Assembly: GCA_036245525.1 (NCBI GenBank)
Contig: BTPG01000007.1
Coordinates: 165,192,976 to 165,256,975, forward strand
Direction of reading: 5' to 3'
Source: Semisulcospira habei
Taxonomy: Eukaryota > Mollusca > Gastropoda > Semisulcospiridae
DNA: 64,000 nt
The notes under the pieces were generated by a model. That model had not been told where the DNA came from. It did no database searches and worked only from the letters and a program-made list of their open reading frames with translations. A program made the translations under genes and the position numbers. Shown piece by piece: positions 40,908 through 62,062 of the stretch; positions within the stretch are counted from its first letter, which is position 1, and each line of letters opens with the position of its first letter.

Positions 40908-41290
40908 ACAGCAGAAACCGCTCTGAGCGACCACCCCAATGAGAGATCACCTGTGATTAAAGACCATCATTCAGGCGGCTGTAGCCACCAAAATAGACTT
41001 TAACCCTTTTAGCCCCAAGTTCCCATTTCTCAAATGTTGGAGGTGTTGCCTAACGACTACCTACCAGTTGCAGGAGATCGATTGACCATGATAATTCAAG
41101 GGTAGTGCCAGATTAGCTTGGCACCTTCAGGCGCCAAGCTAATCTGGCACTACCCTTGAATTATCATGGTCAAATCATCTCCTGCTGGAGGGACTAGGGG
41201 CTAAACGTGTTAATGACAGGTGACTTCATCTGCCCTTGAAAACTTCTCTAAAGAGGGCATCTGCCCTATAGAACCATTTATTTTTTTATG
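40908..41290. repeat. Hairpin element family K split by a family B copy
   Basis: The left part ends CAAAATAGACTT and the right part starts TTAATGACAGGTGAC. The intact K copy at 56498 has the two joined as GGTCTTTAATGACAGGTGA. Confidence 0.8.
41000..41213 (+). repeat. Hairpin MITE family B inserted in a K element
   Basis: 214 bp including both TTAA copies. Its insertion site can be compared with the uninterrupted K copy. Confidence 0.92.
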
Positions 41291-41630
41291 GAACTGAAAA
41301 CGAGTTCTAGTGTACTCTGAAGAAGATTTCTTTCCAGGTTAGCCATGGAAACATGCTGTAGAATAACGCACAGTTTTGTCCTTTTATTCTGAAGCGTGTT
41401 CCTTTTTTTTTGTTGGTGATGAAACTGAAGTACAGTAATTTTCCCGTAAATTGCTCGTGGAGTCTCACAGATTTCATCCTCAAACATATCCAGCAGTGTA
41501 AACGTATGAAAGTGCAACTTAGGTTGAATGATGGTGGTAGGGTCGCCGAAGGGTGGGGATGTGTGACAGTGATTCAAACATCGACGGCCGAATGTAAAGG
41601 GGGGGCGAGTGGTTGTAGTGAAGGTGATCG

Positions 41631-41708
41631 CTAGCCCAAGACGCCTCCGAGAATTCCACACAAGATTATGACGAGAATGACTAGGCAGATGAGGATCATG
41701 ATTTTCTT
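41631..41708 (-). CDS. Syntaxin alternative terminal exon a (transmembrane anchor)
   Basis: On the - strand, acceptor TTTTTCAG precedes AAGAAAATCATG. It encodes [16 protein letters not shown] followed by CGILGGVLG and TAG (41631-41633). KKIM plus the hydrophobic helix and a GG(V/I)xG end is closest to the canonical syntaxin-1 tail. It is 20 kb downstream of the SNARE exon, the most distal choice. Confidence 0.93.
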   Translation of the reverse strand, partial: KKIMILICLVILVIILCGILGGVLG

Positions 41709-44700
41709 CTGAAAAACAGAAAGAAAAAGATATCGCTTAATACAACAATGATTACTGTGCAAGGCACTCAAGTTGCTCAACAGTAGATGTAAATAGAAGT
41801 AGGTACAAAATGATGCGTTTTTTTATGTAAACAGTTGATCAAAGTATGGATAAATACGCAATATGTCAAAACGTGTAAAGTTGATCAACATGTACTTCTA
41901 ATTTCTGAATGTTGTCTATTAGAAAATACTTGTTAACCCATTCAGTCCTGACGCCCTACAGCAGGAGATGGGTCGACCATGATAATTCAAGGGTAGTGCC
42001 AGATTAGCACGGCGCCGACAGGCGCCAAGCTAATCTGGCACTACCGTTGAATTATCATGGTCGATCCATCTCCTGCAACAGGTGCATAGTCGTCAGATGA
42101 CGCCTCCAAAATTGGGGAAATACGTGCGTCGGGGCTGAATGAATTAAAAATATACAGATATATTTTGTACTGTCAGTCTGTGAACAAAATACAGTATGCG
42201 CGTAACTTGAGTACAGTTTAAGAGACACAGGATCTCTTACAATCCCCCAAACGCTCAAGAACTAGAGTTCTGGAAAAAAACATTTAAATAATTTGTAAAA
42301 ATCCTGTTTATTCACTAATAACATTCAAATTCATCTATTTAACCCTTTTAGCCCCAAGGTCTCATTTCTCAAATTTGGGAGGTGTAGCAGTTGCAGGAGA
42401 TGGATTGACCATGATAATTCAAGGGTAGTGCCAGATTAGCTCGGCGCCTGCAGGCGCCAAGCGAATCTTGCACTACCCTTGAATTATCATGGTTAATCCA
42501 TCTCCTGGAACTCCACCAGGGAGGCCCCTTTGGGGGCTTAACTGCCTGTCCCAAGTCAGGATAAAGGAGGAGGGTTAGGCGTGGGGCTAGCGACTCCACC
42601 CTGTAAAAAGAAACTTGCTACGGAAACGACAACAAGGGAAAAAGCGACAACCGGCGCTGGGAGCGAAGCAGACCAGGAAACTGGACTTATGACGGATGGG
42701 GACCAAAGCCGCAAGGACGTCTCCACCCCGATAGCGGAACTCCTGACGCCAAAACGATGGATCAGAATTGGATGCTGGAACGTGCGAACGCTCTACCAGA
42801 CTGGAAAGCTGGCGCAAGCAGTAAGTGAACTGAACCGCCACAAACTAACCCTCATGGGAGTAACAGAAGCAAGATGGACTGGTGCTGGCAGACAGAGGTT
42901 GAGCTCCGGAGAAGTCATCATCTGGTCTGGAAGAACAGACAACGAACACCGAGAAGGAGTTGCTGTCATCATCAATAAGAGCAAGGCCAACACCGTTCTA
43001 CAGTGGAAACCTGTGAACGAGCGCCTGCTGTACGTCAGGATGAATTCCAAATACGCAAAGCTGTCTATTGTTGTGGGCTACGCACCGATAGACGACGCGG
43101 AAGAAGAGGATAAGGATGCATTCTACGACGCCCTCCAAGCTGTTTTGGAAGACATCCCTCGACATGACGTGCTGATGCTGATCGGTGACTTCAACGCTAA
43201 GGTCGGCTGCGACAATGAAGACAGAAAGAGGACCATGGGACGACATGGAGCGGGTGTGATCAACGACAACGGGGAGAGGCTGGTCAATTTCTGCGAGGAG
43301 AATGACTTAGTCATAGGAGGGACCCTGTTTGCGCATAGGGAGATCCACAAACTCACATGGAAATCACCAGACGGCAAGACCCAGAACCAGATCGACCACA
43401 TCATCATTAATGGTCGCTGGAGGCACTCTCTGCAGGATGTGCGAGTGATGCGACATGCTGACATTGGCAGCGACCATAGTCTTCTGGTGGGGAAGGTGAC
43501 ATTGAAGCTTAGGAAAGTAAAGATAGGAGACACCAGAAATCAGCGCTACGACGTGGCCAAGTTGAAAGACCCAAAAGTGAAAGAAGAGTTTAGGTTGGCC
43601 CTCAGGAATAGATTTAGTGTTTTGGAAGATGAGACAGCGCTGACTATTGAAGATTTCAACAGAGCCATGAAGGAAACAGGAGGGGAAGTTTTAGGATACA
43701 GAAAGAGCAGGAAGACAGAGTGGATCTCAGAAGACACGTGGGCTCGCATAGAAGAGAGAAGACAGATCAAGAAGAAACTTTTGGATACCAAATCACCAAG
43801 ACTGAAGGAAAGAATATCAAGAGAATACAGAGAGAAAGATCAAGCGGTGAAGACATCAGCGAGAAGAGACAAGAGAATGTACACAGAAAGGCTGGCAGAA
43901 GAAGCGGAGGCAGCTGCAAAACAGAGAGACATGAAGACAGTGTACCAGAACACCAAGAAGCTGAAGGGCGATTACGGGCAACACCACGACCTTCCAGTGA
44001 GAGCTGAAGATGGAACTCATGTCACAGTAGAGGAAGAGAAGCTGAAGAGATGGAAGCAACACTTCGAGTCCATCCTGAACCGCTCAGACCCACCAACCCT
44101 CACTGACATTCCTGAAGCGGAGGAGGACCTGGACATTAACCTCGGCAACATTACTATTGCGGAAGTCAAGCAGGCCATTCAAAAGCTGAAGAACGGGAAG
44201 GCACCTGGCGATGACGGAGTGTGCCCCGAGATGCTGAAAGTAGAAGATATGGTAACGCCGCAGCTTCTTTGTCAGATTTTTCAAAAGATCTGGGACACTG
44301 AGGAAGCGCCGAGCGATTGGAAGACCGGCACCATCGTCAAACTTCCGAAGAAAGGAGACCTGGGGAACTGTAACAACTGGCGAGGCATCACCTTACTATC
44401 CCTCGCCAGCAAGATCTTCAGCCGCATTCTCCTTGAACGCATTACGACAGCAGTGAATGGCATCCTTCGCCGGGAGCAGGCAGGTTTTAGGAAAGGCAAG
44501 TCCTGCATTGACCATATTTTCGTACTGAGACAGATCCTTGAGCAGTCTAACGAATGGAATGGATCCCTCTATGTGGTCTTTGTAGACTTTGAGAAGGCCT
44601 TCGACAGTCTGCATCGAGACTCCCTTTGGAAAATCCTGCGATACTATGGAATCCCCCAGAAACTTGTCAACGTCATCAGGTCCCTGTACAAGAATTTTGA

Positions 44701-47700
44701 GTGCAGAGTCGTCCACAACAACCAGCTCACCGAACCGTTTAAGGTGGAAACCGGAGTGAAACAAGGATGTATTCTTTCGCCAATCCTATTCTCAATGGCA
44801 ATTGATTGGATCATGCGCCGCACCACAGAGGGAAGGAGGCAGGGAATTCAGTGGACGCTGACCTCAATGCTGGATGACCTCGACTACGCCGATGATATCG
44901 GGCTGCTGGCAAGCAGAAACCAGGACATGCAACAGAAGACACAACAGTTGACACAGTCAGCAAGCTCCATAGGTCTCGGGGTCAACATTAGGAAGACTCA
45001 AGTCATGAGGAAGAACACCATAGTGGGCGACCCAATCACCATCAATGACCAACCTCTGCAAGAGGTGGACGAGTTCACGTACCTGGGCAGCAAGGTTACC
45101 ACAGATGGAGACTGCACAAGGGAGATCACCACAAGAATCAGCAAAGCCAACCAAGCCTTCGCAATGCTGAAACCCATCTGGAGGACCACAAGCCTGAGCA
45201 TCCACACCAAGCTCCGTATTTTTAAGAGCAACGTGCTGAGTGTCCTTCTATATGGGTCAGAATGCTGGAAATCCACTACCGCTACGGAACGCAAGCTGGA
45301 TGTCTTCCAGAACAAGTGCCTGCGACGGATCATGAAGGTCTTCTGGCCAAACATGATTACAAACGAGGAACTACGGAAGAGAGCAGGCGCAGACAGCATC
45401 GCTGAAACCATCGCCACATGGAGATGGAGATGGCTAGGCCACGTTTGCAGAATGTCACCTGACTCATTACCAAGGGTGGCACTGAGATGGACACCACAGG
45501 GGAAGAGAAACCGTGGGCGACCAAAGGAGACGTGGCGCCGAACCGTGGAGCGAGAGCTCAAGAACAGAGGCCTTACTCTGCAAACAGCACCCAAAATAGC
45601 AGCTGACAGACAAAAGTGGCGCTCCCTTGCCGTCGCCTCAAGCACCAGATGGCGCAGAGAGGACTGAATGAATCCATCTCCTGGTCCATGTAGGGACTCG
45701 GGGCTAAACAAGCATTTGTTGGTACTTCAGGGACATGATACTGAGAACATTCCAACCCAACTTAGCTTGCCGCAAGAGTGTTTGCATCGCTACCAACATT
45801 ATTTAGCATTTCATTATGTAGCTTTCAGATTTCAACATTCAAATTATAAAATCTTATCTTATGAGGTCTGAAATGTGAAGTATAAAATGTACTTCTCCAT
45901 GTGAAAAACATGTACAGTTACTTACTAAATGGAGCAGGAAACCACAACAAAAGTATTCAATCATTAATTCAACACATTCAGCCCGACGGCCGTATTTCCC
46001 AAATATTGGAGGCGTCCTCTAATTACTATGCACCAGTTGCAGGAGATGGATTGACCATGATAATTTAAGGGCAGTGCCAGATTAGCTTGGCGCCGACAGG
46101 CGCCAAGCTAATCTGGCACTACCCTTGAATTATCATGGTCCACCCATCTCCTGCTGTAGTGCGTCAGGGCTGAATGGGTTAAAGGGATAGGTGTGCTGGT
46201 CTGTGCTTTTGGACCTTACGGCTCAAAGCAGCAAGGCCAAAGTCAAAGGCCAGCACCAAAATAACTTACCAACTCCGTGCGCTGTACAATATTAATGGAA
46301 TCTGATGTGACAAAAAGAACATCATTGTAAGAGTGAACAACATCAAGACGCCAAATCCACATGAAGCTTGTGCAACACACCAAAACAGTCACATGCAAGT
46401 GTACAAGGAGACTAGCTCAGTTCACTGTTTTATTACTATTATTTAGCATTATTATTATCATTGCACTGTATGATTATATTATTATTATTATTGCAGGCAT
46501 TTGGGCCACTCATCAGGGTTTTCCTCAGGTACTCCCCCAAAATTGGTAAAATAATAATAATAGTCAATTTTTAAATAGGTCGGGTGGCACTGATCTATGA
46601 CACATCTTCTCCAGAGAAGGCATCCCAAATTTCCCCTAGTTGGACAATAAAGTTGTAAAAATAAGAAATAATAAAAACAAACTAGATTTATCACACCTTT
46701 GAAACAGGGCAGTACCACATACCTGAAACACAAAAGTATACAACCAACAGATTTTCTGTTCTTAACCCATATCGTACCGAGGCTAAAAGCTTGAAATTTG
46801 TGCACTGCCATATGCAAGCTACATTATAGTACTTACTGATAAGGATATAGAGGCGCCAAGCTATTCTGGCACTACCCTTGAACTATTTTAGTCAAACTCA
46901 TTTCACACACCGGTGTATTCCGAATGATAAGGGTTAAATTAACCCCCATCTGGCTGCAGCCATCGGTACTGTAAACAGTATGGGTGACTGCAAGGGTAAA
47001 GTCAGATACAGGTACAAGTGCTGGGTAGGTTTAGCTGATCTTTTCACCTGTTTGCAAATGAATGTGTCGGACTCACGTGAACGCGTTTGATGGGCTAACC
47101 CCTTTCAATGCCAGTGGTCATGTTTCTAAAACCACAGTGAATTGAACATGTGGTCCAAGCAACACAGTTACAAAGCCATCAAGAGGCACAGAATCTCACG
47201 AGCTCCCGCAACTGTGGGGGGTTCTTTGCCATTTGTAGCTGTGTTGAACTTATTTTGGCTGGGTAAAGGGAGCCGCCTCAAGGGTAGTGCCTGATTAGCT
47301 TAGCGCCTGGAAGGCGCCAAGCTAATCAGGCACTACCCTTGAGTCAGCTACCTTTATTAAGGGTGATGACAGTGCAAGGGTAGAGGTAGTGGCACTTTCC
47401 GGTGATGCCCATTTTCAGAACCGCAGTAATATGCGGTCTCGTTACCATCACAAGTTGTCCAAGCGCAAACAATAATCCAGCCTCAAGATTGCAGCAATTT
47501 AATTTTTACCAGTCCATCTGTGTCCATATAGATGTAGACATATAACTGTGCTCGGGTGATTTTTGGCCTTATGGTCAACAGCCATAAGCTGCAAAATCAC
47601 AGACCAGTATACAAATTATGAGAAACCTATCACACCCTGTAAACATTTTTTTAAAGTTGTTTCTGCAGTCATCAAGGCTAATGTCCCAACATGCTGCCCA

Positions 47701-50700
47701 TTTATCATTCAGGCAAAGGAAACAAAACGCACAACTCAAGGTCATTTCTACTGAGTTTACTAATGACAAATAAATGTTAAGAACATTGTAATGTACACAA
47801 AAAGGTACATCAAGGTCAAGGTCAAATGACAGAATGTAACAAAAAATTCACCTCTCCATTTGTTTTCAACCAAGTGATATCTGTATGTCAAAATGTCGAA
47901 GTTGCACATGTGATAGTGAATGAGGAGGCACTTGTTCTGAATATTTTGCCAAATCCAAAGGCAAAATGTTGTCCAGAGGAATGTTTTGTTGTTCTGTTAA
48001 CCATCTGGCTGTCCAGAGCGCAGTTCATCCAAGTGATCCATGCAAAGTGCTATGAACAGCCAAAGGGTTAACCCCCTTGTACACACAGCCAGTTTACAGT
48101 GCCTGCACGCACAAGGGGGGGTTATGAGCAGAAATTTGATGAAACCCATGATTTCTGAAGAAAACAGCCTTTGACCGTATCAACAATTACCCTCAGTACA
48201 AAAAATAATGTACAGCGTACACTGAAAAAAACAAAAAAAAGATCACGAAGGTATTTACTATGCTGATTATCTACAGAATACTTTGGCATGGGGTGGGGAT
48301 AATTGATAAAGTGAGGTACACTTGTGTGTGTGTGTGTGTGTGTGTGCGCGTGTGTGTGTGCATGCATGCCACACGTACACTTGCATATAAACACACTCGC
48401 ATGCGCACACGCTCGCATGCGAGTGTGTTTATATGCAAGTGAATGTGTGGAAAGGGGGTCTGGGGCATAGACTAAACTTGAGACAGACGAAAAAGGAGGC
48501 AACTCTGAGACAAATCTGACAACTGCTAATGGCTGGTTGACTTTACATAATCATTCGTCGTCCTCAGTCCCTGACAACAAAATGTTAAAAAGACTGAATC
48601 CTTTTCGCACGACGCCACCAGCAATACAGTATCAGTGACTGCATGAAAAAGGGGCTAAAAGGATATTTAACACATTCACACTTAAAAACACCACAGCTGA
48701 AGGACTGGACTTGAACTATAATAAACGAGCCATCTCAACAAATTTCTCCAAATTTGCGATAATCATAATGATTATTTGGAGCGGAAGAATTGATGTACAA
48801 AATGTAGTTTAACCCTCTTAACCCCAAGGCAGCATTTCCAAACTTTCGGAGGCGTTGTCCAACGACTGTGTATTAGTTGTAAGAGATGGAATGATCATGG
48901 TTGTAAGAGATGGAATGATCATGATAATTCATCATGATAATTCAAGGGTAGTGCCAGATGAGCTTGGCGCCTTCAGGCGCCAAGCTCATCTGGCACTACC
49001 CTTGAATTATTATGATCAATCCATCACCTGCTGCGGGGTCCCGGGGCTAAATGGGTTAAAGAAATGAAGGCTGTACAATGCTTGATGTCCCGACAGCAAC
49101 AAGACTTCCTCAGGATGTGCCTGCACTGATTTTACTTTTAGGGAAGGTGGAGGGGGGTTTACAACTGACCGAGTCAAAGATTTGGTCTTTTCTTTGTGGG
49201 TAGGTGTTAAGGGACGGAGAAAACACTTTAACCCTTTGCGTGTCCGTATCGGTTTCTGTTGCGATGATATCGCGACAAAAACCGATACGGACACGCAAGG
49301 GTTAAGTTTTGCAACAAGATGGCCCATTTCTACAGCCACGGGTAAGGTTTAAAGTATGAGTGGTTGCATGCATAAAGGGTTAACCAACCCCCAGCGACCT
49401 CATAAAATTCCTTCATCATGAAAGAATATTAAATTATTTGCACATTAAATTTAAGATCATGAGCATTACACTATTGAAAATACAACTGTACATCGTGCTG
49501 TGCTGGTCTGTGATGTTGGGCCGTATGCCTTACAGCTAGAGGGTCCAAATCACAAACCAGCAAACCAAATACATGTATGTACACCAGACATGATGCACAT
49601 CTAATACGTATGGAGGAAATCATAGACGTTCATTCACATCTAAGGCAGTACTGAGAAATCACAACAAAAATCCAAGCAAAATGAAGTCAGTACCTTTAAT
49701 GCCAGGGCACAGTGCTATACATAGCGAAACAACAAGAGACACAGATCCGCACACGCCCCTGCACATGCACAGGCTCATGCAGATCTCTGCCTCTTGCCCA
49801 ACCCTTTTATATCTAGAGACGTAACTCACCGCAAGTGGCATTTTAAATTGTTAAGAGTAAAAACACAACATGAATTGAAGGTAATGTATGTACACTGTAC
49901 TTAACTGAGTTTAGAGGAAAGACTCAACGTGAATTTAATGTATGTACATTCTAATGTACACTATATCAAACAGCTGCTTTAACCCATATCATACTGAGGC
50001 TAAAAGTTCAAATTTGTACACTGCCATATGCAAGCTACATTACAGTACTTACAGATAAGGATACGGACCAATGGCTGTAGTTCAAGGGTGGTGCCAGAAT
50101 AGCTTGGCGCCTCAAGGCGCCAAGCTATTCTGGCACTACCCTTGAACTATTTTAGTCAAACTTATTTCGCACACTGGTGTATTCCGAATGATGAGGGTTA
50201 ATCAAACAGTTGGTTTAATCAAAATCTAAAATGTAACTCAGAGTATCAAGTTAGGATGAACCGGTTTAACAAGTTCAGCGTGTGTAGAGTACAAAATAAT
50301 TGCCTTTAAAATCAACGTCCAAACTGTCAGGTCTAGCCTGTTCGGGCATCAAGTTAGGATGAAACAAAAAAGGAGATGGATTGATTGTACATTGCTTAAC
50401 GCCCCGACAGCAACAAGACTTTCTCAGGACGTGCCTGCACTGCTTGTGAAAAAAACAAAACAACAGAATATTGAATGTATGTCGCCAGCCAGTTTAATAC
50501 GTTAAATAAACCTACGACATTGGGCCTAAATAACGCCAAGACCATTTAGCAACACACATCCAATATCAAGAGCTACAGGCAGCACAGACAGTAGGGAGAG
50601 TTTAAAAAAGGAAAATACAGGTGAATGGACCAAGGGTAGACAGAAACACATACCCCAGAATAGAACAGAAAACCCACCCTGTGAGGCTGACCAGGGTGAC

Positions 50701-53700
50701 CCTGGGAACTAAAAAGTAGTTAACCCCACCCAAGTCCCCCAGGGCAGACCCGGGTGGGGAAAAATAGATGGAAAAAGAAGAACTGTTAAGCTTTGTCTCA
50801 TGAAACCTAACCATCATGGCCCTATAAAGGAAGACCTAAAGATTAGCTGGGCGGGGAATGAAGCACTGTAAACTGTTGCTGAGTTACTTCTGTATTTTAT
50901 GATTACCAATGTTGTAGAAATAATCCCCCCCCCCCCTCTCCTGACAATGAAAAGACATTTTTGTCACCTAACAACTGTACAATTTTCAGTGGCAGAACTG
51001 GCCCTTCGTCTGTCTTGTACCGTGTTTGTCTTAAATGGCGTAAATCCGTGTCTGTTACGTGAGTGTGCGTGTTGGGTTTCAGTTCGCGGCGCTTTGAGTC
51101 GATTTGCCCAAAAATTGAGAAAAAGCGCCTATATAATACCGGTATTATTATTATTATTATTATTATTACAATTACATGTATTCACACTTAACCCTCTGCG
51201 TGTCCCTATAAGTTTTTGTCGCGATGATTCAGGAATGATACAGGAATCATCGTGACAAAAACCGATACAGACATGCAAAGGGTTAACACTGTATGGGGTA
51301 AGCAAAGGAAATTCTGAATATCAGCATTTTAACCCCTTGTGCATGCAGCCACTGGTATTGTAAACAGTACTGATGGCTGCATGCACACGAGGGGTTAACG
51401 TATTTCATAAAGATGAAGAACGCACACCTATAACTCAACCTCATCACACTGGAAAAAATGAACATGTCAGGGAGAATACATGTATAGGCAAACTATACCA
51501 AATTACTCTCCCCCCTCCCCAAAACATCTGGAGTTAAGTGGTTATGATGGAAATGTACATAAAACTGTAATGGCTAAAAAGAAAATGCCACCTAAGTACT
51601 ATATCGAGAAGGAATTCGCCATGCAATATATTTTTTTTTAATATAAACATTGTTCTGGTTACTAAATACATAATTACACATGCAGCAATATCTGTTTTGA
51701 ACAAACTACACATAACTGAACGTTCACAAGAAACTAAAACTAATAAAACGGCAGAAAAATTCCCTCAGTCATGCAAAACACCTTTAACTCATTCCGCCCG
51801 GCGCACATATTTCCCAAATTTTGGAGGCCTCATCCAACGACTATGCACCTGTTGCAGGAGATGGATCGACCACGATAATTCAAGGGTAGTGCCAGATTAG
51901 CTTGGCGCCTGTTGGCGCCAAGCTAATCTGGCACTCCCCTTGAATTATCATGGTCGACCCATCTCCTGCTGTAGTGCGTCAGGGCTGAATGGGTTAACCC
52001 GTGCAGTGCTGAGAAAATCTGAACACCACCCAACTGCAAAGGGCATAGATCCTCATGATAATAATAATCATAATAAAGGAGATTTGTTAAGCGCTTATTC
52101 TAAAAGTAGATCTAAGCACTGATACAATGAAAAGGCTAACAGCTAACATGCACACACACACACACACACCCACATACGTGACAGTGGTGATGAATTGTGC
52201 ATGGCTGGGGAAATGAACTAATGAAAGGCAGCGTCGTAGAAGTGGGTTTTGCAAAGTGATTTGAGTGAGGAGACCATTTGACAGTTACGGACCGGGTGAA
52301 GGGGGGGGGGGGGAGGCGGGGGGAAGGGGGCGGGGAGGCGGGGGGAGGGGGCGGGGAGACTGTTCCAAGTGGCGGGGCCAAGATGGGAAAAGGCACGACC
52401 GCCACGTGTTTCACATTTGAAATTGGGAAGGCGAAATTTTAAGCGTTTCAGAGGAGGAAGAATGGAGGGTGTGAGATGGAGTACACAGATGGAGTAAGTC
52501 AGAGATATAGGCAGTTGCAGGGACTCATGAGGATCTATGCCCCTTGCTGGCACCACTTTGAATCCGTGTTCCTGGGACAGCTGGGGATCCTGGTGTTGAA
52601 TTAACCAAGACTGCGGGAAAAACAGTCTGTGTCAATTGGCACTGAACGGGTTAACAAAGGCTATGAACACTAACCATCTACATTGTCAAGGCGCCTCCAT
52701 GTACTTTTTGGTATGAACTACTCAAATGAACCCTCGTTACCTACAAAAGTGGTGTCTATGGGGAAATCATAAATATAAACCCCCTTCTAAACCCCCTTTC
52801 ACTCCCAGAACTAAATGAGTTCCACTCCATAGAAGGCATTTAGTTTTGGGAGTCAAAGAGTTAATCTATGCACTAATGATGACAATGTCTTTAACTCATT
52901 CAGCCCGACGCATGCATTTCCCAAATTTTGGAGGCCTCATCTAACGACTATGCACCTGTTGCAGGAGATGCATCGACCATGATAATCCAAGGGCAGTGCC
53001 AGATTAGCTTGGCGCTAACAGGCGCCAAGCTAATCTGGCACTGCCCTTGAATTATCATGGTTGACCCATCTCCTGCTGTCGTGCATTAGGGCTGAATGGG
53101 TTAAGGTGAAAAAAAAAGACAAGATATGTATGCTGAGAGTACAAGAAGTGTGACATCACTTGAATCAGCGGAAACACTTTCATGTTTCCGATGTTGCATT
53201 TCTTCTGCTCATCAGTATACGAATGCTTAAATGTCCTGCTACTAGTTTACACTTCCAGATTATTTCACCCTCTTGTGCATGCTGCCACTAGCACTGCAGA
53301 CAGTACCAGCACCTGTTTGTTTCACCCTCTTGTGCATGCTGCCACTAGCACTGCAGACAGTACCAGCACCTGTTTGCACCAATGGGTTAACCCATTTAAT
53401 CCCAAGGCCCACAATTTTGGAGGTGTCACCTAACAAATATGTACCAGTTGCAGGAGATGAATCAACCATGAAAATTCAAGGGCAGTGCCAGATTAGCTTG
53501 GCGCCTGAAGGCGCCAAGCAAATCTGGCGCTACTCTTGAATTAACATGACAGATCCATTTTGTCGAGGCTAAATGTGTTAAAAAACATTGAAAACATGCA
53601 TCCTTTTTTTAAAAAAAGTACACATTCACACATTTGATACATGTATCTACCGCGAGCATGTCAGATATTTAACTCATTTAAGGTGCCCGACATCGACAGC

Positions 53701-56700
53701 TGCAGAAGTGTTGTATAGCGCTTCCACTGGCAACGCTATATGACACTTTTGCAGCTACTGAAGCGGGGCTCATTCACCGACATTACATGCAAAAATGTAG
53801 GTATTCACTGAAGGTGAGTTGTGAAGTATTACTACAAACTAATTCAGGTTTTTCCCAATCACCATGATTAACTGAAAAAAAAAAAGTTTCTGGAGCAGTA
53901 ATTCTTAATTGGTTAAGTGACGCATGAATAAAGTTAATTAGGGAGTTATTTTCACAACTTTAAACCCGTTTTGTCTGTGTCATTCAAAACCGCATTTCTC
54001 TCTTGGCTGTTTATAGCCCAATAGGAAACAATGTTTTCGCATTTCTGTCCTGACTTGACTAAGCAAGCAATTATTTCTGTTTAATGACTGCTTAATATTG
54101 CACATAATTAGACCAATACACAATGAAAAAAAAAAGAGAAAATTAAACGCTTCTTCTTGATCAGCAGGATTCCGCATTATGTACACAAACAAAAACATAC
54201 CACGTGTGATTGTGTCAATATAAAATTGTACATATATCACTGAATGCTACGGGAAACATAGTCCTTAATGAAAATATATTTTTCAAAAGAAAATTCTACC
54301 ATATTCATTTTGTACAAAGCAGGAGACAAAATCATCAAAAAGTTCTAAATTTACAGAAAAATGAAATGATTCCTTTACAGGAAAGTGATTTCGTGAAATC
54401 ATGAATAAATTATAGAGTGGATACAGCGCTGAATACACAAATTTGCATGATCAATCTACAGAATGACACAATGAAATGAAAAACATTAACTGCCATTACG
54501 GAAAAATTACAGAAACAACTAAAATGTTTCAACAGTTGAAAAAAACAATGCTACCACAATTAATGTTACAAGTGCTAGTATTAATCCTTTCACCGACACA
54601 GATCGTGTTTTTGAAATCACTGAAAATTCAACACCAAAGATCCCCAGGCACCAAAGGAACGTGGATACAAAGTGTCCCTAGCAAGAGACATACATTTTCT
54701 TGAGCCCCTGCAAATGTGGAGGCTCATGAGTACCTATGCCTCTTTCAGTTAACCCGTATCATACTGAGGCTAAAAGCTTCAAATGTGTACACTGCCATAG
54801 GCAAGCTACATTATAGTGCTCACAGATAAAGATATAGACCAAATGGCTTTAGTTCAAGGGTGGTGCCAGAATAGCTTGGCGCCTAGGGGCGCCAAGCTAT
54901 TCTGGCACCACCCTTGAACTATTTTAGTCAAACTTATTTCACACACTGGTGTATTCCGAATGATAAGGGTTAAATAGTATTCAACTTTTCTTGGGCAGTG
55001 AATAGGTCTAACTCTGATCAACACGTCCGATTTGAAAATCTGGAATGATAGCTGTGTCAAATCACAAACACGATTAACCCCGTAACCCATTACCTCCTGA
55101 GGCTGATTTGGTAACACTCGCTTACCGTCCTATGAAGGGCTACACTACAGATTAGGAGATAGATCAACTGGTTTAGCTCAAGGCTGGTGCCAGAAAAGCT
55201 TGGCGCCACAGGCGCCAAGCTATTCTCGCACCACCCTTAAACTATCAGTCAAATTCATTTCAAGCGATGGGTGTACCAGATTAAAAGGGTTATGCCCTGA
55301 AACGCTACAACCAGAAACAGATGGACCATGATAGTTCAAGCTTAACTTTCATGGTCCACGGACCACTACGGTTCAACGTCAAACTACATGTACCATGCTG
55401 TATGTGCTTGCGGCTGTTGTGTGCCTGGGGCCAGTTGCATGAGCGAGCTTTAGTCCTGCACCAGCCACTAAGCAAGGGGCGCCGCTATAGTGGCGCCCCT
55501 TGCTTAGTGGCTGGTGATGGACTAAACTCGCTCATGCAACTGACCTTGGTTCAGGCTGAGCTTTAACAAGCAGTGTGACGTGGACGGTCTCCTTGTGACA
55601 GCAGACACATTTTCCGCCTCACATTTTGGCTGGGTAGGTCAATAAACCTTAGCAGATGATGAATAGATATTTCAAGGGAAGCTACTTTAAACTGCTACAA
55701 TTTGTCCTCCTCAGATTTTGGCTAGGTAAGTAATAAACTCAGCAGACGATGAACTGATAATTCAAAGGAAGCAAGTTGAAAGCTGTCTTCGAGTGACAGC
55801 ATACGGGTACAATTTGCTTTGCATCAGATTTTGGCTAGTATGGTAAATTGAAAAACTGTACCCAGAGATGAAGCATCAATTTATGGGTAACGGGATGTGC
55901 ATTGTCAGCTTGTCAAAGCACATTTTTTTTCTTGCAATATGTTTTGGCTTCATAAGTCGATAAACTGTAGCAACGAAATGACTAATAGCCCACAGGTAAC
56001 TAGTTGCAGATTGTCTTCTTGTGAGCACAAAATTTTACAGCATCTGATTTTGACTAGGTCAAACTTAGACACAACCAGCATAGATAAACAGCGCACCAGC
56101 CTACCATATTATCTGATGCCTGACTGTCAGTGTGTAAACATCGGTAAACAGCGCACCAGCCTACCACATTATCTGATGCCTGACTGTCAGTTTGTAAACA
56201 TCGGTAAACAGCGTGCCAGCCTAGCATATCATCTGATGCCCGACTGTCAGTTTGTAAACATCGGTAAACAGCGCGCCAGCCTAGCACGTTATCTGATGCC
56301 TGACTGTCAGTGTGTAAGCATGGCACTACCAGTGCTGAGCGCTTACCTGACCGTCGGTTGTTGTGTCCTTAAAGCTCATGTGACAAACGCACTCAAGACA
56401 TGATGAGGAAGTGTGTAATTTTGGACTTTAACGCTCCTAGAAATGTGTGCTGGTCTATAATTTCAATATTCAACTAACATAATAATAATAATAATACAGC
56501 AGAACCTGTTTTGAGTGATCACATCACCTGTCATTAAAGACCATCATTCAGGTGGCTGTCGCCACCTGAATGATGGTCTTTAATGACAGGTGACACTGTT
56601 TGCCCTTCCAGACTTCTCTTGTCTCTTCAGGCCATTTTTGTAGTGCAAAAAGATGGATGCTCAAAACAGGTTCTGCTGTAAAATAACAGACCAGCACAAA

Positions 56701-59700
56701 AATGTGGCATGGAACCCAGTTTAACTCCATATTAAAACAGGACAATTGGGTGAGACTTCATTTTTTAAAAATAAAAATCTATCTGGGACTACAGCAAATA
56801 ACTAACAATAACAGCTTTGAGACATCATTTGGCTGTATTTCAAACCAGTTTTAGATGAAATAAATTTCAAAGACCTTTTTTTTTGTGCAAATAAAGGAAA
56901 GAGAGAAAGAACACATATACACTGACAAATACACAATGTCAACATTCAAACATGCACAACAACACATTAAAACACAATTAGGAAACTAAAAAAATTCACA
57001 GATACTGTGCTCTTAAAAATCACACACCATGATTCAGAAGGGGTCAATTTTACGTAATTTCAGCGCAAATGTACCCTGCAAATGTCATAAAGATGACCCC
57101 TTCAGCAAAGTAAGACAAACACACCTTAAGAATATGAATTGCAACATAATCACAGTTCAAATGTTACCAAAATACAAAGCTGTCACTCAGACGTCGGTGA
57201 ATTTAACAAAAATATTGGGCACTGTGGTACACAAAAGTGGACAACATTTCATGCCGATTGTAATAAATGAAGTAAAAAAACGGTCTGACATCTGAGAGTT
57301 TAAGTTCTACATATATCATAGAGTACATAACAAGACATGAGTCAGTAACAGAGCATAGCTTGAATTTTCATGACAGTTAGTGGGTAGTGGAGGATTTAGG
57401 CGCGAAGGCAATCTGCACTACCCTTCAACTATCAGGGACAACCTATCTTCTGTGACACTGATTGCGTGTGAAGACTGATTATGTTCAGCAATTAGCATGG
57501 TCACTTTTGGTATACTCGTGGGGTGTAAGTCAAATTACATGCTGATTTAAACACTCACTTTGTAACCGATGGAACTGATCAAACTGAAAAGTTGATTAAG
57601 GGTTCACTTTGTGATCTGACTGAACTGATAACGTTTGACAGCTGATTTAACCCATTTAGCCCCGGATCATTACAGGAGATGGCTTGACAATGATAATTCA
57701 AGGGTAGTGCCAGATTAGCTTGGCCCCTTCAGGCGCCAAGCTAATCTGGCACTACCCTTGAATTGCCATGATCAAGCCATCTCCTGCACACAACGGTAAA
57801 GTCGTTGAGTAACACTTCCACAATCTGGAAATGGCACCTGTGGGGCCAAAAGAGTTAAATGTTCACTTTTTGCGATTTAGCTGAACTGACTAACTAACTG
57901 TTGAAGTTCTTGGATGATGTCAACAGGTACTACGTGAGGTCTAGAGAATGTCAAATGGGTGTCTGCAAGACGCTCAAAGCAGCAAAGCAATGGCCACGCC
58001 CACAAATACTGACTCTTGGCAGTATTATGAAACTCCAGAATAAAAATGAATGGTGTATGAAAAATCATTTACAAAAAAATATTGATAACTTCCCTGCAGA
58101 GCTCAACGGATGGGAAAAATACACCAATAATGTTCTCTGGAATTAGGAGAAACTTCTCGAGAAATTACATCACTGGACTCATGACACACTTTGACAACAA
58201 TCACAGTTCACGGCATAGAGTCACAAGAGCACCTGGAGCTGCAGGGGATGAGAATCTATGTCTCTTGATGGCCGAGACCGGCTCAATTTGTATCTTCTGC
58301 TTAACTCATTCAGCCCGGCGCACATACTTCCCAAATGTTGGAGGCGTCATCTAATGACTATGCACCTGTTGCAGGAGATGGGTGGACCATGATAATTCAA
58401 GGGTCGTGCCAGATTAGGTTGGCGCCGACAGGCACCAAGCTAATCTGGCACTACCCTTGAATTGTCATGGTCCACCCATCTCCTGCTGTAGTGCGTCAGG
58501 GCTGAATGAGTTAAGGGAAATCATCTGAGTTATGCAAGCAAAGATCATATGCAATGCCTACTGATGTAGAATAACTCTTACTGGGTATTGTCTGTTCTGA
58601 GATGATAGTTTCCCCTCAAATAATAGTAAAATTGGGAGCTCTTTCCAACAGAGAATATTTGTCAATGCACACGTCAGGCAGCTAAGTCCATAAAACGTTT
58701 AAGTGGAAATCCATGAACAGTTCAACAAAAACAACGCTGATTCTCCATCACTGTTTGTTGGTTTCGACTCCAATTATGATGGCTATAATAATAATGGCCA
58801 GGACAGCACATATACAAACTATGATGATAATCTTTTTCTGAAACAAACCAAACAAAAAACAGAAATAAGGATAACATCAAAAACCAAAAGAACAGAAGTA
58901 AAAGACATGAAAGAAATCAGGAAAAATAAAAATATATTTTGAACAATAAATGAGCACAATAATACACGAACACATGTATGAAGGAGGGTGCTGAGACGAA
59001 ACAGGAAAGGGGAGGAGGTGGAGGGTGGGGGTGGGCTTGTGGGGTGGGGGTTGGAAGGAATCAAAGAAAATAAAAATGTATGTAAAACTACAAAAATATG
59101 TAGAAATGATATTTCATGAAATTAAAAAAAAAGGAAAATGAAATGTGCAGACATACAATGACATGTATGGAAGGTGCTGAAATGACTCTGTGAGGGATAA
59201 ACAGTTTGAAAGACACTGAACAATTTGACACTAGCTGCTGTACACAACATAAGTGAAAACAAAAACAACAACAACAGAAAAGAAGCAACAAAGATAGGCG
59301 GTAGTTTTGACTGAAATCAGAACACCAGCATGAACCAAAACTCAACACACAAACATCAACGCTGACGTGACGTAAACAAATCTTATACTGATGAGCAAAA
59401 GAAATGTCACATAATTTGAATCATCAAAACTGTTTCCGATGATTCCAATGACATCACATTTCTTTTTAACATCAATGCAATTTGTTTGACACTGACATGG
59501 ACGTGGACAATCAAACGTCAATATATATGTGCAGTCACACATTAGTCCCTCCAGCTGTAAGCATTAGATCAAGACAGTTTGCAGGCTTCTATCAACACAA
59601 TACCCACACTAGTTCACTCCCTTCAGTCTGCTCCACGTCACGTGGATCAAGGGAGGTAACCAATGTTAACCCATTACATCCTGACGCTGATTTTGTAAAA

Positions 59701-62010
59701 TGTGCTTATTGCCCTATGAAGGCTACAGTACAGATTAGGATATAGATCAACTGTTTTAGTTCAAGGGTGGTGCCAGAATAGCTTGGCGCCTCAGGCACCA
59801 AGCTATTCTGGCACCACCCTTGAACTATCAGTCAAATGTATTTCAAGCAATCGATGTATTAGAATAATATGGGTTAATGGAACCACATGCTGCGCCCCAC
59901 AACCATGATTCTATTCACTATAGCAGAACTTCTAACACTGAGAAACACCTAGCCCCAAACCGCTAAACCCAGAACCAGATGTCTAAACATAATTGTTTAA
60001 TATCATCTGCTGAGCAATATGTACAAGTCACAGGATGTGGATCAGCTGTGATATCTCAGGAGTAGTTCCTGACTATTGGTTAAAGCAGGTCAAACACACC
60101 ATGAACTTTACCAGAGAAAACTGAACTCTAAATGACTTCAATCCTCCCCCTTTTTCAAGAGGACAAAATTCATCCACGTGAATGTCTAGATTATTTAGTT
60201 GCCACAGCGGTTCTGGGTGGCGGGAAAGGGACGGTGGGGTTCACTGAAAGTTTAGTTTTGTAGAATTCATAGTAAATTCGGCGCATGCTCAGCTCGAAGT
60301 CTCTCTAGGTGTATGGCTTTTCAGACATTAATCTTAAAGAATCCAGCATCACAGCTCAAGGTAGTGCCTGATCAGCTTGACAAACAGATCAGCACCAAGC
60401 TAATCAAGCACTATCTAAAGCTATCCTTGTTCATCCATATCCCACGGGTGGTGTTAGAAGTGACCTAGTCTCAATCATGAATGTTAGTGAACCACAGAAT
60501 CCATGAGCTCTGCGACACAATAATCATACCTCACAACAAACAAGTTCTAACATTCAGCCCTGACACAGTAAAACAAGACTGGATTGGACCATGACAGTTC
60601 AAGGGTGGTGTCATTATAGCTTGGCGCCTGAAGGCGCCAAGCTATAATGACAGCACCCTTGAACTATCATGGTCGATCTTGCCTAAACTAAAGTAGTCTT
60701 CAGAGAACAACTCCCCAATAGGGAATTTTGCAAATTTCAACATCAGGGCTCAATGCATTGACATGCTGAACATGCAACAAATCATAAACGAGAAAGTCAG
60801 TGCATTAGTGCGCAGGCTGAGCCTCTAGCGTGCAGACAGAAGCGTGTTGACAGAGCACAGTTGAGTGCTGACTCGTTACGGGATAACGGTGACCAGGATG
60901 ATAATCGTAATAATGGCCAGCAGGATGAGAATGCAAATTATGATCAGAATTTTTTTCTGAAAAATAAGAAAATGGCATTCCAAAGAAACAGGGATTCGAT
61001 CGAGATGATATAATTCAAGAGAACAGGACTGATATGAATCTGATATAATTACTGGCATAAACTCCCAATCTTTTTTATTCTAAATTTTCAATCAGTAAGT
61101 TAGAATATTGGGGTCAAGAGGTGGACGCCAAAGTAGAGCAATTAGGGCCAATGAACATAAGACATTATGCTACCAGTATTTAACTTTTCAAGTTACATTA
61201 AACTGATGTGCAAAAGAAATGCAACATAATCAGAATCTTCAAGAACACTGGTACATGTATATTTCAGATGATTCTGATGATGTTGCATTTCTCTTGCTGA
61301 CCAGTATACAGAAAGAGTATCACAAGGCAGCCATCTTCCTTTTGCTGGTTAGTATAGAAAGATGTATTACAACACACATGTTAAACATGCAGACATGAAA
61401 CAACTCTTGAGAGGAAAACACCACACAGACTGAGCAAAGTGCATGTTTGAAAGAACACTCACAACGTGCAAGACAGAAAGTGACAAAACAAAACAACACA
61501 CAGTGTGCCATGTAGTATTGTTATACGCTAACACTGATGATGAAAAATACTGACACACAAAACACTCACACACAAGGAAAATGGTGAACTACTTAGAGTA
61601 CTAACACTGAAGTGCTAATCTGTAATTATGGACCTTTTGGCATTAAACTGCAAGGTTTCTACCACAGCCAAACAAATTTTTATCACATCGAAACAAAGAA
61701 CAGACACAGTGGTTGATTGTGCAAAATGAACTCATCACTAACAAATTCTCAACACATCTAAAACATGTAAGTGATTGCTGATCTGTGATATTGGACCATA
61801 TGGCTGAAAAGTCATAAGTTCCAAAATCACAGCCCAGCACACAAAACACATGCAACATTCACAAATGATAGAGATCAACAAAATGTCTGATTCACTTACC
61901 CGTCTTGCTTTACTCTGGTATTTGACGGCTTTCTTTGTATCCATTTTGGCCGTTTCTATGTAATCCACCGCCTGCTCCACATTGTATTCTATCCTGTCGA
62001 TCATCTCTCC
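41631..62010 (-). CDS. STX1A: Syntaxin-1-like t-SNARE gene, 3' part, three alternative last exons
   Basis: Plasma-membrane Qa-SNARE for vesicle fusion, with SNAP-25 and synaptobrevin as known partners. Only the end is in the window: the exon for the C-terminal half of the SNARE helix and juxtamembrane region, and three phase-0 terminal exons, each with KK plus a hydrophobic helix and its own stop. Alternative syntaxin tails are known in other invertebrates (C. elegans unc-64). N-terminal Habc exons lie beyond 64 kb. STX1A is used as a family symbol; bilaterian one-to-one naming is not tested. Confidence 0.92.
41933..42147 (-). repeat. Hairpin MITE family B
   Basis: TTAA at both ends. Its core has ATTAGCACGGCGCC on the left, an uncoupled change. 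Confidence 0.9.
42509..45670 (+). mobile_element. RTE-like non-LTR retrotransposon, apparently full length
   Basis: Flanked by a 14-bp target duplication AATCCATCTCCTGG (42495-42508 and 45671-45684). The 5' leader has GGGCTAGCGACTCCACCCTG, similar to leaders of many RTE elements. The 3' end is TGAATG right at the stop codon, so there is almost no 3' UTR; the TGAA-type tail fits RTE clades. The uninterrupted ORF suggests a recent insertion. Confidence 0.88.
42581..45667 (+). CDS. LINE endonuclease-reverse transcriptase (RTE-like)
   Basis: 1028 open codons from a GTG; the first ATG in a good place is near 42689 ([10 protein letters not shown]). The apurinic-type endonuclease has [21 protein letters not shown] and SDHSLL. 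RT has [64 protein letters not shown] and catalytic YADD (near 44890). The tail has WLGHVCRM and [13 protein letters not shown]. It nicks target DNA and primes reverse transcription there. Clade call (RTE versus relatives) is moderate; no frameshift or stop is seen. Confidence 0.93.
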   Translation: MGLATPPCKKKLATETTTREKATTGAGSEADQETGLMTDGDQSRKDVSTPIAELLTPKRWIRIGCWNVRTLYQTGKLAQAVSELNRHKLTLMGVTEARWTGAGRQRLSSGEVIIWSGRTDNEHREGVAVIINKSKANTVLQWKPVNERLLYVRMNSKYAKLSIVVGYAPIDDAEEEDKDAFYDALQAVLEDIPRHDVLMLIGDFNAKVGCDNEDRKRTMGRHGAGVINDNGERLVNFCEENDLVIGGTLFAHREIHKLTWKSPDGKTQNQIDHIIINGRWRHSLQDVRVMRHADIGSDHSLLVGKVTLKLRKVKIGDTRNQRYDVAKLKDPKVKEEFRLALRNRFSVLEDETALTIEDFNRAMKETGGEVLGYRKSRKTEWISEDTWARIEERRQIKKKLLDTKSPRLKERISREYREKDQAVKTSARRDKRMYTERLAEEAEAAAKQRDMKTVYQNTKKLKGDYGQHHDLPVRAEDGTHVTVEEEKLKRWKQHFESILNRSDPPTLTDIPEAEEDLDINLGNITIAEVKQAIQKLKNGKAPGDDGVCPEMLKVEDMVTPQLLCQIFQKIWDTEEAPSDWKTGTIVKLPKKGDLGNCNNWRGITLLSLASKIFSRILLERITTAVNGILRREQAGFRKGKSCIDHIFVLRQILEQSNEWNGSLYVVFVDFEKAFDSLHRDSLWKILRYYGIPQKLVNVIRSLYKNFECRVVHNNQLTEPFKVETGVKQGCILSPILFSMAIDWIMRRTTEGRRQGIQWTLTSMLDDLDYADDIGLLASRNQDMQQKTQQLTQSASSIGLGVNIRKTQVMRKNTIVGDPITINDQPLQEVDEFTYLGSKVTTDGDCTREITTRISKANQAFAMLKPIWRTTSLSIHTKLRIFKSNVLSVLLYGSECWKSTTATERKLDVFQNKCLRRIMKVFWPNMITNEELRKRAGADSIAETIATWRWRWLGHVCRMSPDSLPRVALRWTPQGKRNRGRPKETWRRTVERELKNRGLTLQTAPKIAADRQKWRSLAVASSTRWRRED
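45967..46182 (-). repeat. Hairpin MITE family B
   Basis: Core 46060-46133. Left end decayed (TTCAAC), right end GGGTTAA. Confidence 0.88.
46187..46259. repeat. Hairpin family J
   Basis: GTGCTGGTCTGTGCTTTTGG and a right arm ending GGCCAGCAC. Confidence 0.7.
46762..46937 (+). repeat. Hairpin MITE family A lacking one core arm
   Basis: Both ends are intact (TTAACCCATATCGTACC, GATAAGGGTTAA), but the left core arm is deleted between two TAG triplets: GATATAG joins directly to AGGCGCCAAG. Confidence 0.9.
46939..46999. repeat. Hairpin MITE family E
   Basis: TTAA at the left. GCAGCCATCGGTACTG and CAGTATGGGTGACTGC. Confidence 0.6.
47096..47370. repeat. Decayed family D element containing a B-type core hairpin
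   Basis: CCCCTTTCAATGCCAGTGG and the AAGAGGCACAGAATCTCACG arm are D-like. At 47279-47345 a hairpin has GTGCCTGATTAGCTTAGC on the left and GCTAATCAGGCAC on the right, with a coupled A-to-T change. Confidence 0.65.
47546..47612. repeat. Hairpin family J
   Basis: GGTGATTTTTGGCCTTATGG and AAAATCACAGACC. Confidence 0.65.
47997..48124. repeat. Decayed family F-type and E-type elements sharing a TTAA
   Basis: 47997-48071 runs TTAACCATCTGGCTGT to ACAGCCAAAGGGTTAA. 48068-48124 is a short E copy ending GCACAAGGGGGGG. Confidence 0.6.
48321..48445. repeat. TG microsatellite beside a perfect palindrome
   Basis: A TG/GCG run (48323-48360), then CTTGCATATAAACACACTCG with its complement (48380-48440), enclosing CATGCG repeats. 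Confidence 0.88.
48594..48660. repeat. Hairpin MITE family E (decayed)
   Basis: CCTTTTCGCACGACGCCACC and GTGACTGCATGAAAAAGGGG. Confidence 0.5.
48809..49059 (+). repeat. Hairpin MITE family B with local duplication
   Basis: TTAA at both ends. GTAAGAGATGGAATGATCAT occurs twice. The core has coupled T-to-G changes (CAGATGAGC / GCTCATCTG). Confidence 0.9.
49066..49140. repeat. Fragment of the SINE-like element
   Basis: GATGTCCCGACAGCAACAAG and GGATGTGCCTGCACTG match copies at 32594 and 50376. Confidence 0.65.
49228..49305. repeat. Hairpin MITE family F
   Basis: A 78-bp near-perfect palindrome, TTAACCCTTTGCGTGTCCG with its complement. Confidence 0.9.
49498..49565. repeat. Hairpin family J
   Basis: CTGTGCTGGTCTGTGATGTT and a right arm CAAATCACAAACCAGC. 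Confidence 0.65.
49728..49802. repeat. Hairpin family D core
   Basis: CAAGAGACACAGATCCGCAC and a right arm GCAGATCTCTGCCTCTTG. Confidence 0.6.
49979..50201 (+). repeat. Hairpin MITE family A
   Basis: Full copy; core hairpin 50081-50149. Confidence 0.9.
50376..50757 (-). mobile_element. SINE-like element, copy 2
   Basis: Collinear with 32594-32980, including GACAGTAGGGAGAGTTTAAA and ACCCGGGTGGGG. Possible imperfect flanking duplication around AGATGGA. Confidence 0.75.
50990..51165 (+). mobile_element. CR1/L2-like LINE 3' tail fragment
   Basis: GCGCTTTGAGTCGATTTGCC, AAAAGCGCCTATATAATACC, then a TTA microsatellite, the usual form of CR1/L2-like 3' ends. Confidence 0.55.
51188..51286. repeat. 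Hairpin MITE family F
   Basis: TTAACCCTCTGCGTGTCCC to CATGCAAAGGGTTAA, with ATTCAGGAATGAT at the tip. Confidence 0.85.
51329..51398. repeat. Hairpin MITE family E
   Basis: The cleanest E copy: a 70-bp TTAA-bounded palindrome with GTGCATGCAGCCACTGG. Confidence 0.88.
51784..51997 (-). repeat. Hairpin MITE family B
   Basis: 214 bp with TTAA at both ends. It shares its right TTAA with the next D element. Confidence 0.92.
52061..52508 (-). mobile_element. 5'-truncated CR1/L2-like LINE fragment
   Basis: On the - strand it reads [13 protein letters not shown] and then [15 protein letters not shown], typical of the very C-terminus of CR1/L2-like RT proteins, then a 3' UTR with AAGCGCTTAACAAATCTCC and an ATT-type tail. 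A G-rich expansion (52298-52365) interrupts the coding part. Confidence 0.75.
52298..52365. repeat. G-rich tract
   Basis: GGGGGAGGCGGGGGG-type repeats inside the LINE fragment, a candidate quadruplex. Confidence 0.85.
52783..52864. repeat. Hairpin MITE family H
   Basis: CTCCCAGAACTAAATGAG and CATTTAGTTTTGGGAG. Right TTAA present. Confidence 0.75.
52891..53104 (-). repeat. Hairpin MITE family B
   Basis: 214-bp copy with TTAA at both ends. Confidence 0.92.
53264..53390. repeat. Family E arm duplicated in tandem (59 bp, two copies)
   Basis: TTCACCCTCTTGTGCATGCT starts both copies. Each carries AGCACTGCAGACAGTACCAG. Ends at a TTAA shared with the next element. Confidence 0.85.
53387..53581 (+). 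repeat. Hairpin MITE family B (short)
   Basis: TTAA at both ends, 195 bp. The right subterminal region is shortened. Confidence 0.88.
53669..53776. repeat. TTAA-started hairpin, single-copy family I
   Basis: Arms with AGCTGCAGAAGTGTTGTATA and TATATGACACTTTTGCAGCT. Left TTAA at 53669; right end unclear. Confidence 0.65.
53777..54580. other. Intron of the syntaxin gene, AT-rich
   Basis: I see no gene, hairpin element or tandem repeat here. Confidence 0.5.
54581..55012. repeat. Hairpin MITE family D with nested family A copy
   Basis: TTAATCCTTTCACCGACAC, the D hairpin 54680-54748, then the nested A copy, then TAGTATTCAACTTTTCTTGG as in the 6063 copy. Confidence 0.75.
54749..54973 (+). repeat. 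Hairpin MITE family A
   Basis: Full copy with TTAA at both ends, placed at the TTAA just after the D hairpin. Confidence 0.9.
55074..55293 (+). repeat. Hairpin MITE family A variant
   Basis: TTAACCCCGTAACCC to AAAAGGGTTA. Core hairpin 55174-55243 with several mismatches. Confidence 0.8.
55430..55547. repeat. Long perfect-arm palindrome
   Basis: Arms of about 50 bases (CAGTTGCATGAGCGAG and CACTAAGCAAGGGGCGCC with complements) around GCTATA. No TTAA at the edges. Confidence 0.85.
55610..56075. repeat. Degenerate tandem repeat of about 110 bp
   Basis: Four to five units, each starting near GATTTTGGCTAGGTAA and containing GATGAA plus a TCAAGGGAAGC-like block. Confidence 0.6.
56083..56325. repeat. 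60-bp minisatellite, four copies
   Basis: The unit contains GGTAAACAGCGCACCAGCCT and CTGATGCCTGACTGTCAG. The 20-codon period keeps frames open on both strands, which explains the apparent ORFs here. Confidence 0.92.
56498..56680. repeat. Hairpin element family K, uninterrupted
   Basis: Outer arms ACAGCAGAACCTGTTTTGAG and complement. Inner 33-base perfect arms at 56524-56556 and 56561-56593 around TGTC. Confidence 0.88.
56681..57646. other. Syntaxin intron, mostly unassigned
   Basis: No gene-like signal. At 57370-57440 a decayed core-hairpin relic (GGCGCGAAGG, CACTACCCTTCAACTATC). Around 57540-57640 weak repeats of TTCACTTTGTGATCTGACTG. Confidence 0.45.
57647..57858 (+). repeat. Hairpin MITE family B
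   Basis: TTAA at both ends; core 57690-57765. Confidence 0.9.
58301..58514 (-). repeat. Hairpin MITE family B
   Basis: 214-bp copy with TTAA at both ends. A D-type relic (CATAGAGTCACAAGAG to CTATGTCTCTTG) lies at 58214-58268. Confidence 0.9.
58748..58837 (-). CDS. Syntaxin alternative terminal exon b (transmembrane anchor)
   Basis: On the - strand, acceptor GTTTCAG precedes AAAAAGATTATC. It encodes [18 protein letters not shown], then [11 protein letters not shown] and TGA (58748-58750). It starts in the same phase as exons a and c and adds a short polar extracellular tail after the helix. Confidence 0.92.
   Translation of the reverse strand, partial: KKIIIIVCICAVLAIIIIAIIIGVETNKQ
58838..59665. 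other. Syntaxin intron between alternative exons b and c, left part
   Basis: AT-rich with a purine-rich GGAGG tract at 58980-59060. No hairpin element until 59666. Confidence 0.5.
59666..59877 (+). repeat. Hairpin MITE family A variant
   Basis: TTAACCCATTACATCCTGACG to ATATGGGTTAA. Same subterminal type as 36195 and 55074. Confidence 0.88.
60355..60425. repeat. Decayed core hairpin
   Basis: CTCAAGGTAGTGCCTGATCAGC and CTAATCAAGCACTATC remain of a B-like core. Confidence 0.5.
60547..60763 (+). repeat. Hairpin MITE family C with fully coupled arm changes
   Basis: Core 60597-60664. Left arm GTCATTATAGCTTGGCGCC and right arm GGCGCCAAGCTATAATGAC are perfect complements but differ from the family sequence at several bases. 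End TTAAs decayed. Confidence 0.85.
60876..60956 (-). CDS. Syntaxin alternative terminal exon c (transmembrane anchor)
   Basis: On the - strand, acceptor TTTTCAG precedes AAAAAAATTCTG. It encodes [17 protein letters not shown], then IIILVTVIP and TAA (60876-60878). It is the terminal exon nearest the SNARE exon (0.94 kb away) and is phase 0 like the others. Confidence 0.93.
   Translation of the reverse strand, partial: KKILIIICILILLAIITIIILVTVIP
60957..61770. other. Syntaxin intron between exon c and the SNARE exon
   Basis: AT-rich. A palindrome-like pair (GCAACATAATCAGAATCTTC, GATTCTGATGATGTTGCATT) lies at 61221-61290, and a J-type half at 61611-61665. Confidence 0.5.
61776..61841. repeat. 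Hairpin family J, 59 bp from the syntaxin donor
   Basis: TGCTGATCTGTGATATTGG and a right arm TTCCAAAATCACAGCCCAGC. Confidence 0.7.
61900..62010 (-). CDS. Syntaxin SNARE-motif exon (shared by all tails)
   Basis: A 37-codon exon on the - strand with acceptor TTTATTTAG and donor GTAAGT. It encodes [20 protein letters not shown] and then [17 protein letters not shown], the C-terminal half of the Qa-SNARE helix and the basic juxtamembrane segment. Near identity to syntaxin-1 of other animals is recalled knowledge. It ends in phase 0, so any of the three terminal exons can follow. Confidence 0.96.
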
Positions 62011-62062
62011 CTAAATAAATGACATAAAATAAAGAAAAATGAAGTAAAGTAATTACATGTCA

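Follow-up and report, generated by a model that had tools for sequence, protein, structure and literature searches.

Results

The window (the whole stretch of DNA analyzed here, 64 kb long) very probably carries on its minus strand the 3'-terminal part of a syntaxin-1 gene, in which one SNARE exon is followed by three alternative last exons (Table 1). The last exons are named e1, e2, and e3 in transcript order and correspond to exons c, b, and a of the initial annotation. The SNARE exon, 111 nt long, codes for 37 residues of the C-terminal part of the syntaxin-1 SNARE motif and ends in phase 0, with the borders tttatttag/GGAGAGATG ... GCAAGACGG/gtaagtg. Each of the following exons has a pyrimidine-rich acceptor (ttcttatttttcag/AAAAAA at 60956 for e1, ggtttgtttcag/AAAAAG at 58837 for e2, and tttctgtttttcag/AAGAAA at 41708 for e3) and its own stop codon. 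The four exons proposed by the initial annotation were thus all recovered on the minus strand, as was the design ascribed to them, i.e., a phase-0 SNARE exon and then exons with a KK start, a good acceptor, a hydrophobic helix, and a private stop. The exon ends that it had read (GGVLG, the polar GVETNKQ, and VTVIP for a, b, and c, respectively) were likewise found.

TABLE 1 Predicted features of the syntaxin-1 locus, in window positions
Feature	Position	Strand	Remarks
SNARE exon	61900..62010	-	Donor gtaagtg; PF05739 with each tail; 37 residues the same as in Mytilus, Lymnaea, and Haliotis
Intron before e1, TGTGT-rich, possible CELF-type sites (dropped, see text)	60957..61899	-	13 TGTGT
e1, first alternative last exon, putative V-type anchor	60876..60956	-	26 residues and stop; KKIL...VTVIP
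e2, second alternative last exon, divergent anchor apparently leaning to V-type	58748..58837	-	29 residues and stop; KKII...GVETNKQ, polar end
e3, third alternative last exon, putative canonical GG-type anchor	41631..41708	-	25 residues and stop; KKIM...GGVLG
AATAAA polyadenylation-type hexamers 3' of e3	41277..41388	-	First bases 41388 and 41282

In all three forms, the sequence KARRKK, a basic juxtamembrane stretch, precedes a single C-terminal anchor of 22 to 24 hydrophobic residues (24 after the KK of e1, 22 for e2, and 23 for e3). The Pfam domain PF05739 was detected with E values of 8.2e-21 with the e3 tail, 4.7e-16 with that of e2, and 4.1e-17 with that of e1. The best PDB match is syntaxin-1A, the SNARE exon joined to e3 aligning with 2m8r_A over 62 of 62 residues. 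A tblastn search with 120 whole syntaxins found in the 64-kb window neither the upstream exons (N-terminal peptide, Habc domain, and first SNARE half), which presumably lie beyond position 64000, nor a second SNARE half-exon.

A putative further gene and several repeats share the window. On the plus strand, six pieces at 5799-9369, possibly extending to 19295, match the methyltransferase part of the turbot model P0116 with 60 to 79% identity and E values of 7e-5 or better. This model, named 18S rRNA guanine-N7 methyltransferase (BUD23), joins the methyltransferase to syntaxin-1A; in P0162, another fish model, the related C-terminal domain PF12589 is fused to a syntaxin. The BUD23 matches run on the strand opposite to the syntaxin gene, in a tail-to-tail arrangement. 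Since BUD23 and STX1A also adjoin in human, they may have been neighbors since early bilaterians. Long retroelement-like frames in several copies, presumably DIRS-like, occupy 359-4808, 13244-18629, and 20673-26272 on the plus strand, some of them interspersed with the BUD23 exon matches. The frame at 20673-25376 (plus strand) includes a reverse transcriptase domain; no Pfam domain was detected in that at 3718-4554. An intact plus-strand frame of 1028 residues with endonuclease and reverse transcriptase domains (42581-45667), a non-LTR retroelement, lies between e2 and e3 on the strand opposite to the syntaxin gene. Short dispersed repeats at 59663-59879, 60551-60684, and 62061-62284 each have 55 to 62 matches within the 64-kb window, and one of them lies some 50 bases 5' of the SNARE exon. 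No tRNA and, at the gathering threshold, no Rfam family was detected in the window.

The three anchor exons stand out from chance

We scanned both strands of the window for an acceptor followed by a K/R start, a hydrophobic stretch of 19 residues, and a stop within 45 residues. The scan returned e1, e2, and e3 and nothing else. In 150 third-order Markov sequences, 0.013 such exons were expected per strand, none beginning with two basic residues, at a pyrimidine threshold of 14/20 (the scan used 12/20, and the three exons have 15, 15, and 18). Chance hydrophobic frames were rejected on this basis. Among the 1113 AG dinucleotides in 41300-62100, the acceptors of e1, e2, and e3 ranked 4th, 9th, and 2nd, respectively, by a crude ad hoc score that placed the SNARE exon acceptor 38th. 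A tblastn search that used 22 homologous anchors and no composition correction gave E values of 7e-9 for e3, 3e-8 for e1, and 7e-6 for e2, the next place having an E value of 0.041. With 120 whole syntaxins and the correction on, e3 (8e-6) was in the best 25 places, and e1 and e2 fell outside them.

This last result, together with the repeats around e1 and e2, is what could be expected if the two exons were foreign to the syntaxin gene, either as chance hydrophobic frames or as remnants of another gene. We nevertheless consider such an origin very improbable, given the chance expectation above and the anchor homology of both exons. Moreover, e1 and e2 agree in strand and phase with the SNARE exon, which is the only one that tblastn found in the window. 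The sequence thus supports the initial proposal of a syntaxin-1 gene whose one SNARE exon is followed by three alternative anchors.

The 3' ends differ in their polyadenylation-type signals. Two AATAAA hexamers follow e3 (Table 1). For e1, the only hexamer is ATTAAA at 60001, 0.9 kb past the stop, and for e2, it is ATTAAA at 56584; neither AATAAA nor ATTAAA occurs closer to the e2 stop than these 2.2 kb. As for splicing out to a further exon, a scan with three simple donor patterns found none in the 3 kb that follow the e1 stop and a single one after e2, 2.4 kb past its stop. The exons had been described as mutually exclusive last exons: they are best viewed as alternative last exons, but not as mutually exclusive internal ones, and we have abandoned that wording.

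We also considered CELF-type regulation. TGTGT resembles the UGUGUGUG motif reported for CELF2 in mouse (PMC4946901). Only 5 of 1225 minus-strand windows equal the intron before e1 in TGTGT richness. However, when the intron was simulated 1000 times with a second-order Markov model, 271 copies reached this level; the richness is no more than composition predicts, and the candidate was dropped.

Two anchor classes and a divergent third exon

Anchors were sorted by hand into a GG type, that of canonical syntaxin-1, and an isoleucine/valine-rich V type, with reference sets of 10 and 12 anchors, respectively. Leave-one-out separation of these sets was complete (22/22), a partly circular result because they were hand-picked after viewing the anchors and include same-gene pairs. 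The mean alignment score of e3 was 81.8 against the GG set versus 54.5 against the V set; e1 scored 68.7 against V versus 45.7 against GG, and e2 scored 59.3 versus 51.2. By sequence, e3 appears to match the canonical GG-type syntaxin-1 anchor and e1 the widespread V-type anchor. The assignment of e2 is less certain: it resembles a more divergent V-type anchor and is nearly as close to GG. Its GVETNKQ end had no match among the 142 distinct anchors compared (22 to 36 residues long, from 225 proteins). When residues were shuffled, the mean score against the own class was reached in 0 of 2000 shuffles for each exon, and that against the other class in 7 of 2000 for e1 and in none of 2000 for e2 and e3. 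Each exon therefore resembles a syntaxin anchor beyond its residue composition, although the shuffles alone do not settle whether an anchor belongs to GG or V.

The anchors have I/V/T fractions of 0.67 (e1), 0.68 (e2), and 0.43 (e3) and zero, one, and four glycines, respectively. All three exons keep the KK and have a cysteine as their eighth residue. The transmembrane domain (TMD) of syntaxin-1A contains a pair of adjacent cysteines; in e3, the residue-8 cysteine aligns with the first of them, and the second is missing from all three exons. In STX1A, PIP2 binding involves K264 and K265, and the TMD cysteines C271 and C272 are reported to be needed for palmitoylation (PMC9183232).

Syntaxins with several anchors in other animals

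For comparison, we used 120 of 1566, 120 of 143, and 120 of 504 protein matches, together 225 distinct proteins, and picked by hand, by name, 17 species or genus groups from the matches listed. Isoforms with different anchors on an otherwise identical protein occur in at least 12 of these 17 groups, a lower bound given this sampling; further isoforms may be hidden because the protein collection is clustered at 90% identity. Three anchors were found in at least three groups (Mytilus galloprovincialis, Diadema antillarum, and Amphiura filiformis) and two in the other nine of the 12. Among the matches listed, four groups (Dreissena, Mizuhopecten, Tachypleus, and Varroa) have the same anchor in every isoform, and the isoforms of the remaining group, Gordionus, differ by an extension only. 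Genera with more than one isoform outside the 17-group count include Argopecten, with the same anchor in both, Octopus, and Montipora.

A close counterpart is found in M. galloprovincialis, whose syntaxin X1, X2, and X3 (P0034, P0049, and P0039) carry two V-type anchors and one GG-type anchor, share the identical 37-residue SNARE exon, and are 265/265 identical before the anchor. However, no polar end comparable to that of e2 is present in the second of its V anchors, and these isoforms are known as database protein models alone. D. antillarum and A. filiformis also combine three anchors with an otherwise identical protein, but none of their listed anchors is of the GG type by eye. Therefore, three-anchor syntaxins are already present as data, and the suggestion that three tandem anchors might be undescribed is not supported: the arrangement is not new, having entered protein databases as models or predicted proteins. 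Judged by title and abstract, no paper listed in our searches of the open-access literature treats such exons in molluscs.

Two anchors are more common than three (nine versus three of the 12 differing groups), as would be seen if only e3 and e1 were working alternatives, forming a GG and V pair, and e2 were a local duplicate, little used or decaying. The uncertain class of e2, its unmatched polar end, and the distance to its nearest polyadenylation hexamer agree with this possibility. Yet e2 has retained an open frame, the KK, the residue-8 cysteine, a high-ranking acceptor, and V and GG scores that no shuffle attained. We consider it unlikely, though worth keeping in mind, that e2 is such a duplicate, and we favor three usable anchors.

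GG and V anchors on one gene were found, as classed by hand, in at least 5 of the 12 differing groups: M. galloprovincialis, Mytilus californianus, Mya, the nemertean Lineus, and the hemichordate Ptychodera. Single records that score closer to the V set than to the GG set, in several cases only slightly, and with no same-gene partner shown come from Daphnia, beetles, an ant, annelids, a brachiopod, and some fishes. The echinoderm anchors among the matches listed are non-GG by eye.

In three models, P0002 (Pinctada imbricata), P0006 (Anopheles), and P0014 (Agrilus), two versions of the C-terminal SNARE half stand in tandem, an arrangement that looks like one alternative SNARE exon spliced onto another. 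The syntaxin-1 of protostomes may often have such alternative halves.

Discussion

Joining the donor at 61900 to one of the acceptors at 60956, 58837, and 41708 would yield one fusion protein with three possible anchors. Each last exon would be used with its own 3' end, the choice presumably being made by cell type, so that the SNARE motif would stay constant and the anchor would change. Since the KK and the residue-8 cysteine are kept in all three exons, docking and perhaps palmitoylation would be kept as well. The likeliest effect would be that the three forms cluster or are sorted differently in the plasma membrane and differ in fusion behavior. Because the hydrophobic lengths are close and the compositions differ more, length is no more likely to be important than are composition, flexibility, and the polar end of e2. 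The initial annotation had suggested that different anchors place the protein in different membrane domains; this is plausible because changes of two to three residues in the anchor shift syntaxin between clusters, and anchor length sorts syntaxins into clusters. Anchors two residues longer or three residues shorter were reported to change cluster segregation (PMC4313621). The extent of the anchor's contribution in syntaxin-1 is described as still under debate (PMC9183232).

The likeness to worm unc-64 already pointed out for this locus is supported. In Caenorhabditis elegans, exons 8a and 8b of this syntaxin-1-type gene give rise to the UNC-64A and UNC-64B anchors on one protein (PMC4946901), and the window has the same design, with at least two 3' exons that encode anchors and stops after one common exon. 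As described there, however, the two worm anchors differ in their last 14 residues only, whereas the three exons found here each start at the KK. UNC-75/CELF favors exon 8a in neurons (PMC4946901), a regulation demonstrated for unc-64. By analogy with UNC-64A and UNC-64B, e3 may be the nerve form and e1 and e2 the forms of other tissues, although the roles of the two worm anchors are disputed (PMC4946901). Vertebrate Syntaxin2 and Syntaxin3 splice forms provide further C-terminal anchor alternatives within the syntaxin-1 subfamily (PMC4946901, PMC11119284, and PMC9183232), including two anchor forms of mouse Syntaxin2 (PMC4946901). In STX3A and STX3B, unlike in the window, with its single SNARE exon, the C-terminal half of the SNARE motif is reported to be swapped too (PMC11119284).

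An alternative is that the anchors of the window are functionally equal, the last exons persisting mainly for their own 3' untranslated regions and thus for different mRNA control. Such equivalence would fit the shared KK and cysteine and the similar hydrophobic lengths, as well as the finding that axon regrowth in unc-64 mutants was rescued by either anchor when overexpressed (PMC4946901). In the same study, however, movement was rescued by the A anchor only, although another study cited there found otherwise (PMC4946901). Moreover, the GG and V types remain distinct in composition across distantly related animals. We therefore regard functional equality as rather improbable and favor anchors that differ in their effects.

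The GG and V exon pair on one syntaxin-1 gene could be an ancient bilaterian arrangement, of which the window would have both members and a third. We put this forward tentatively, as somewhat short of an even chance, the alternative being a repeated, independent duplication of anchor exons. At synapses, syntaxin-1 is the central SNARE of the plasma membrane, and swapping the anchor on a constant SNARE motif amounts to a natural experiment. That such swaps are spread among bilaterians suggests regulation of the anchor as a part of the protein. If the pair is indeed ancestral, two ways of anchoring one fusion machine would have been kept since before the protostome/deuterostome split, with local duplication now and then adding a third anchor.
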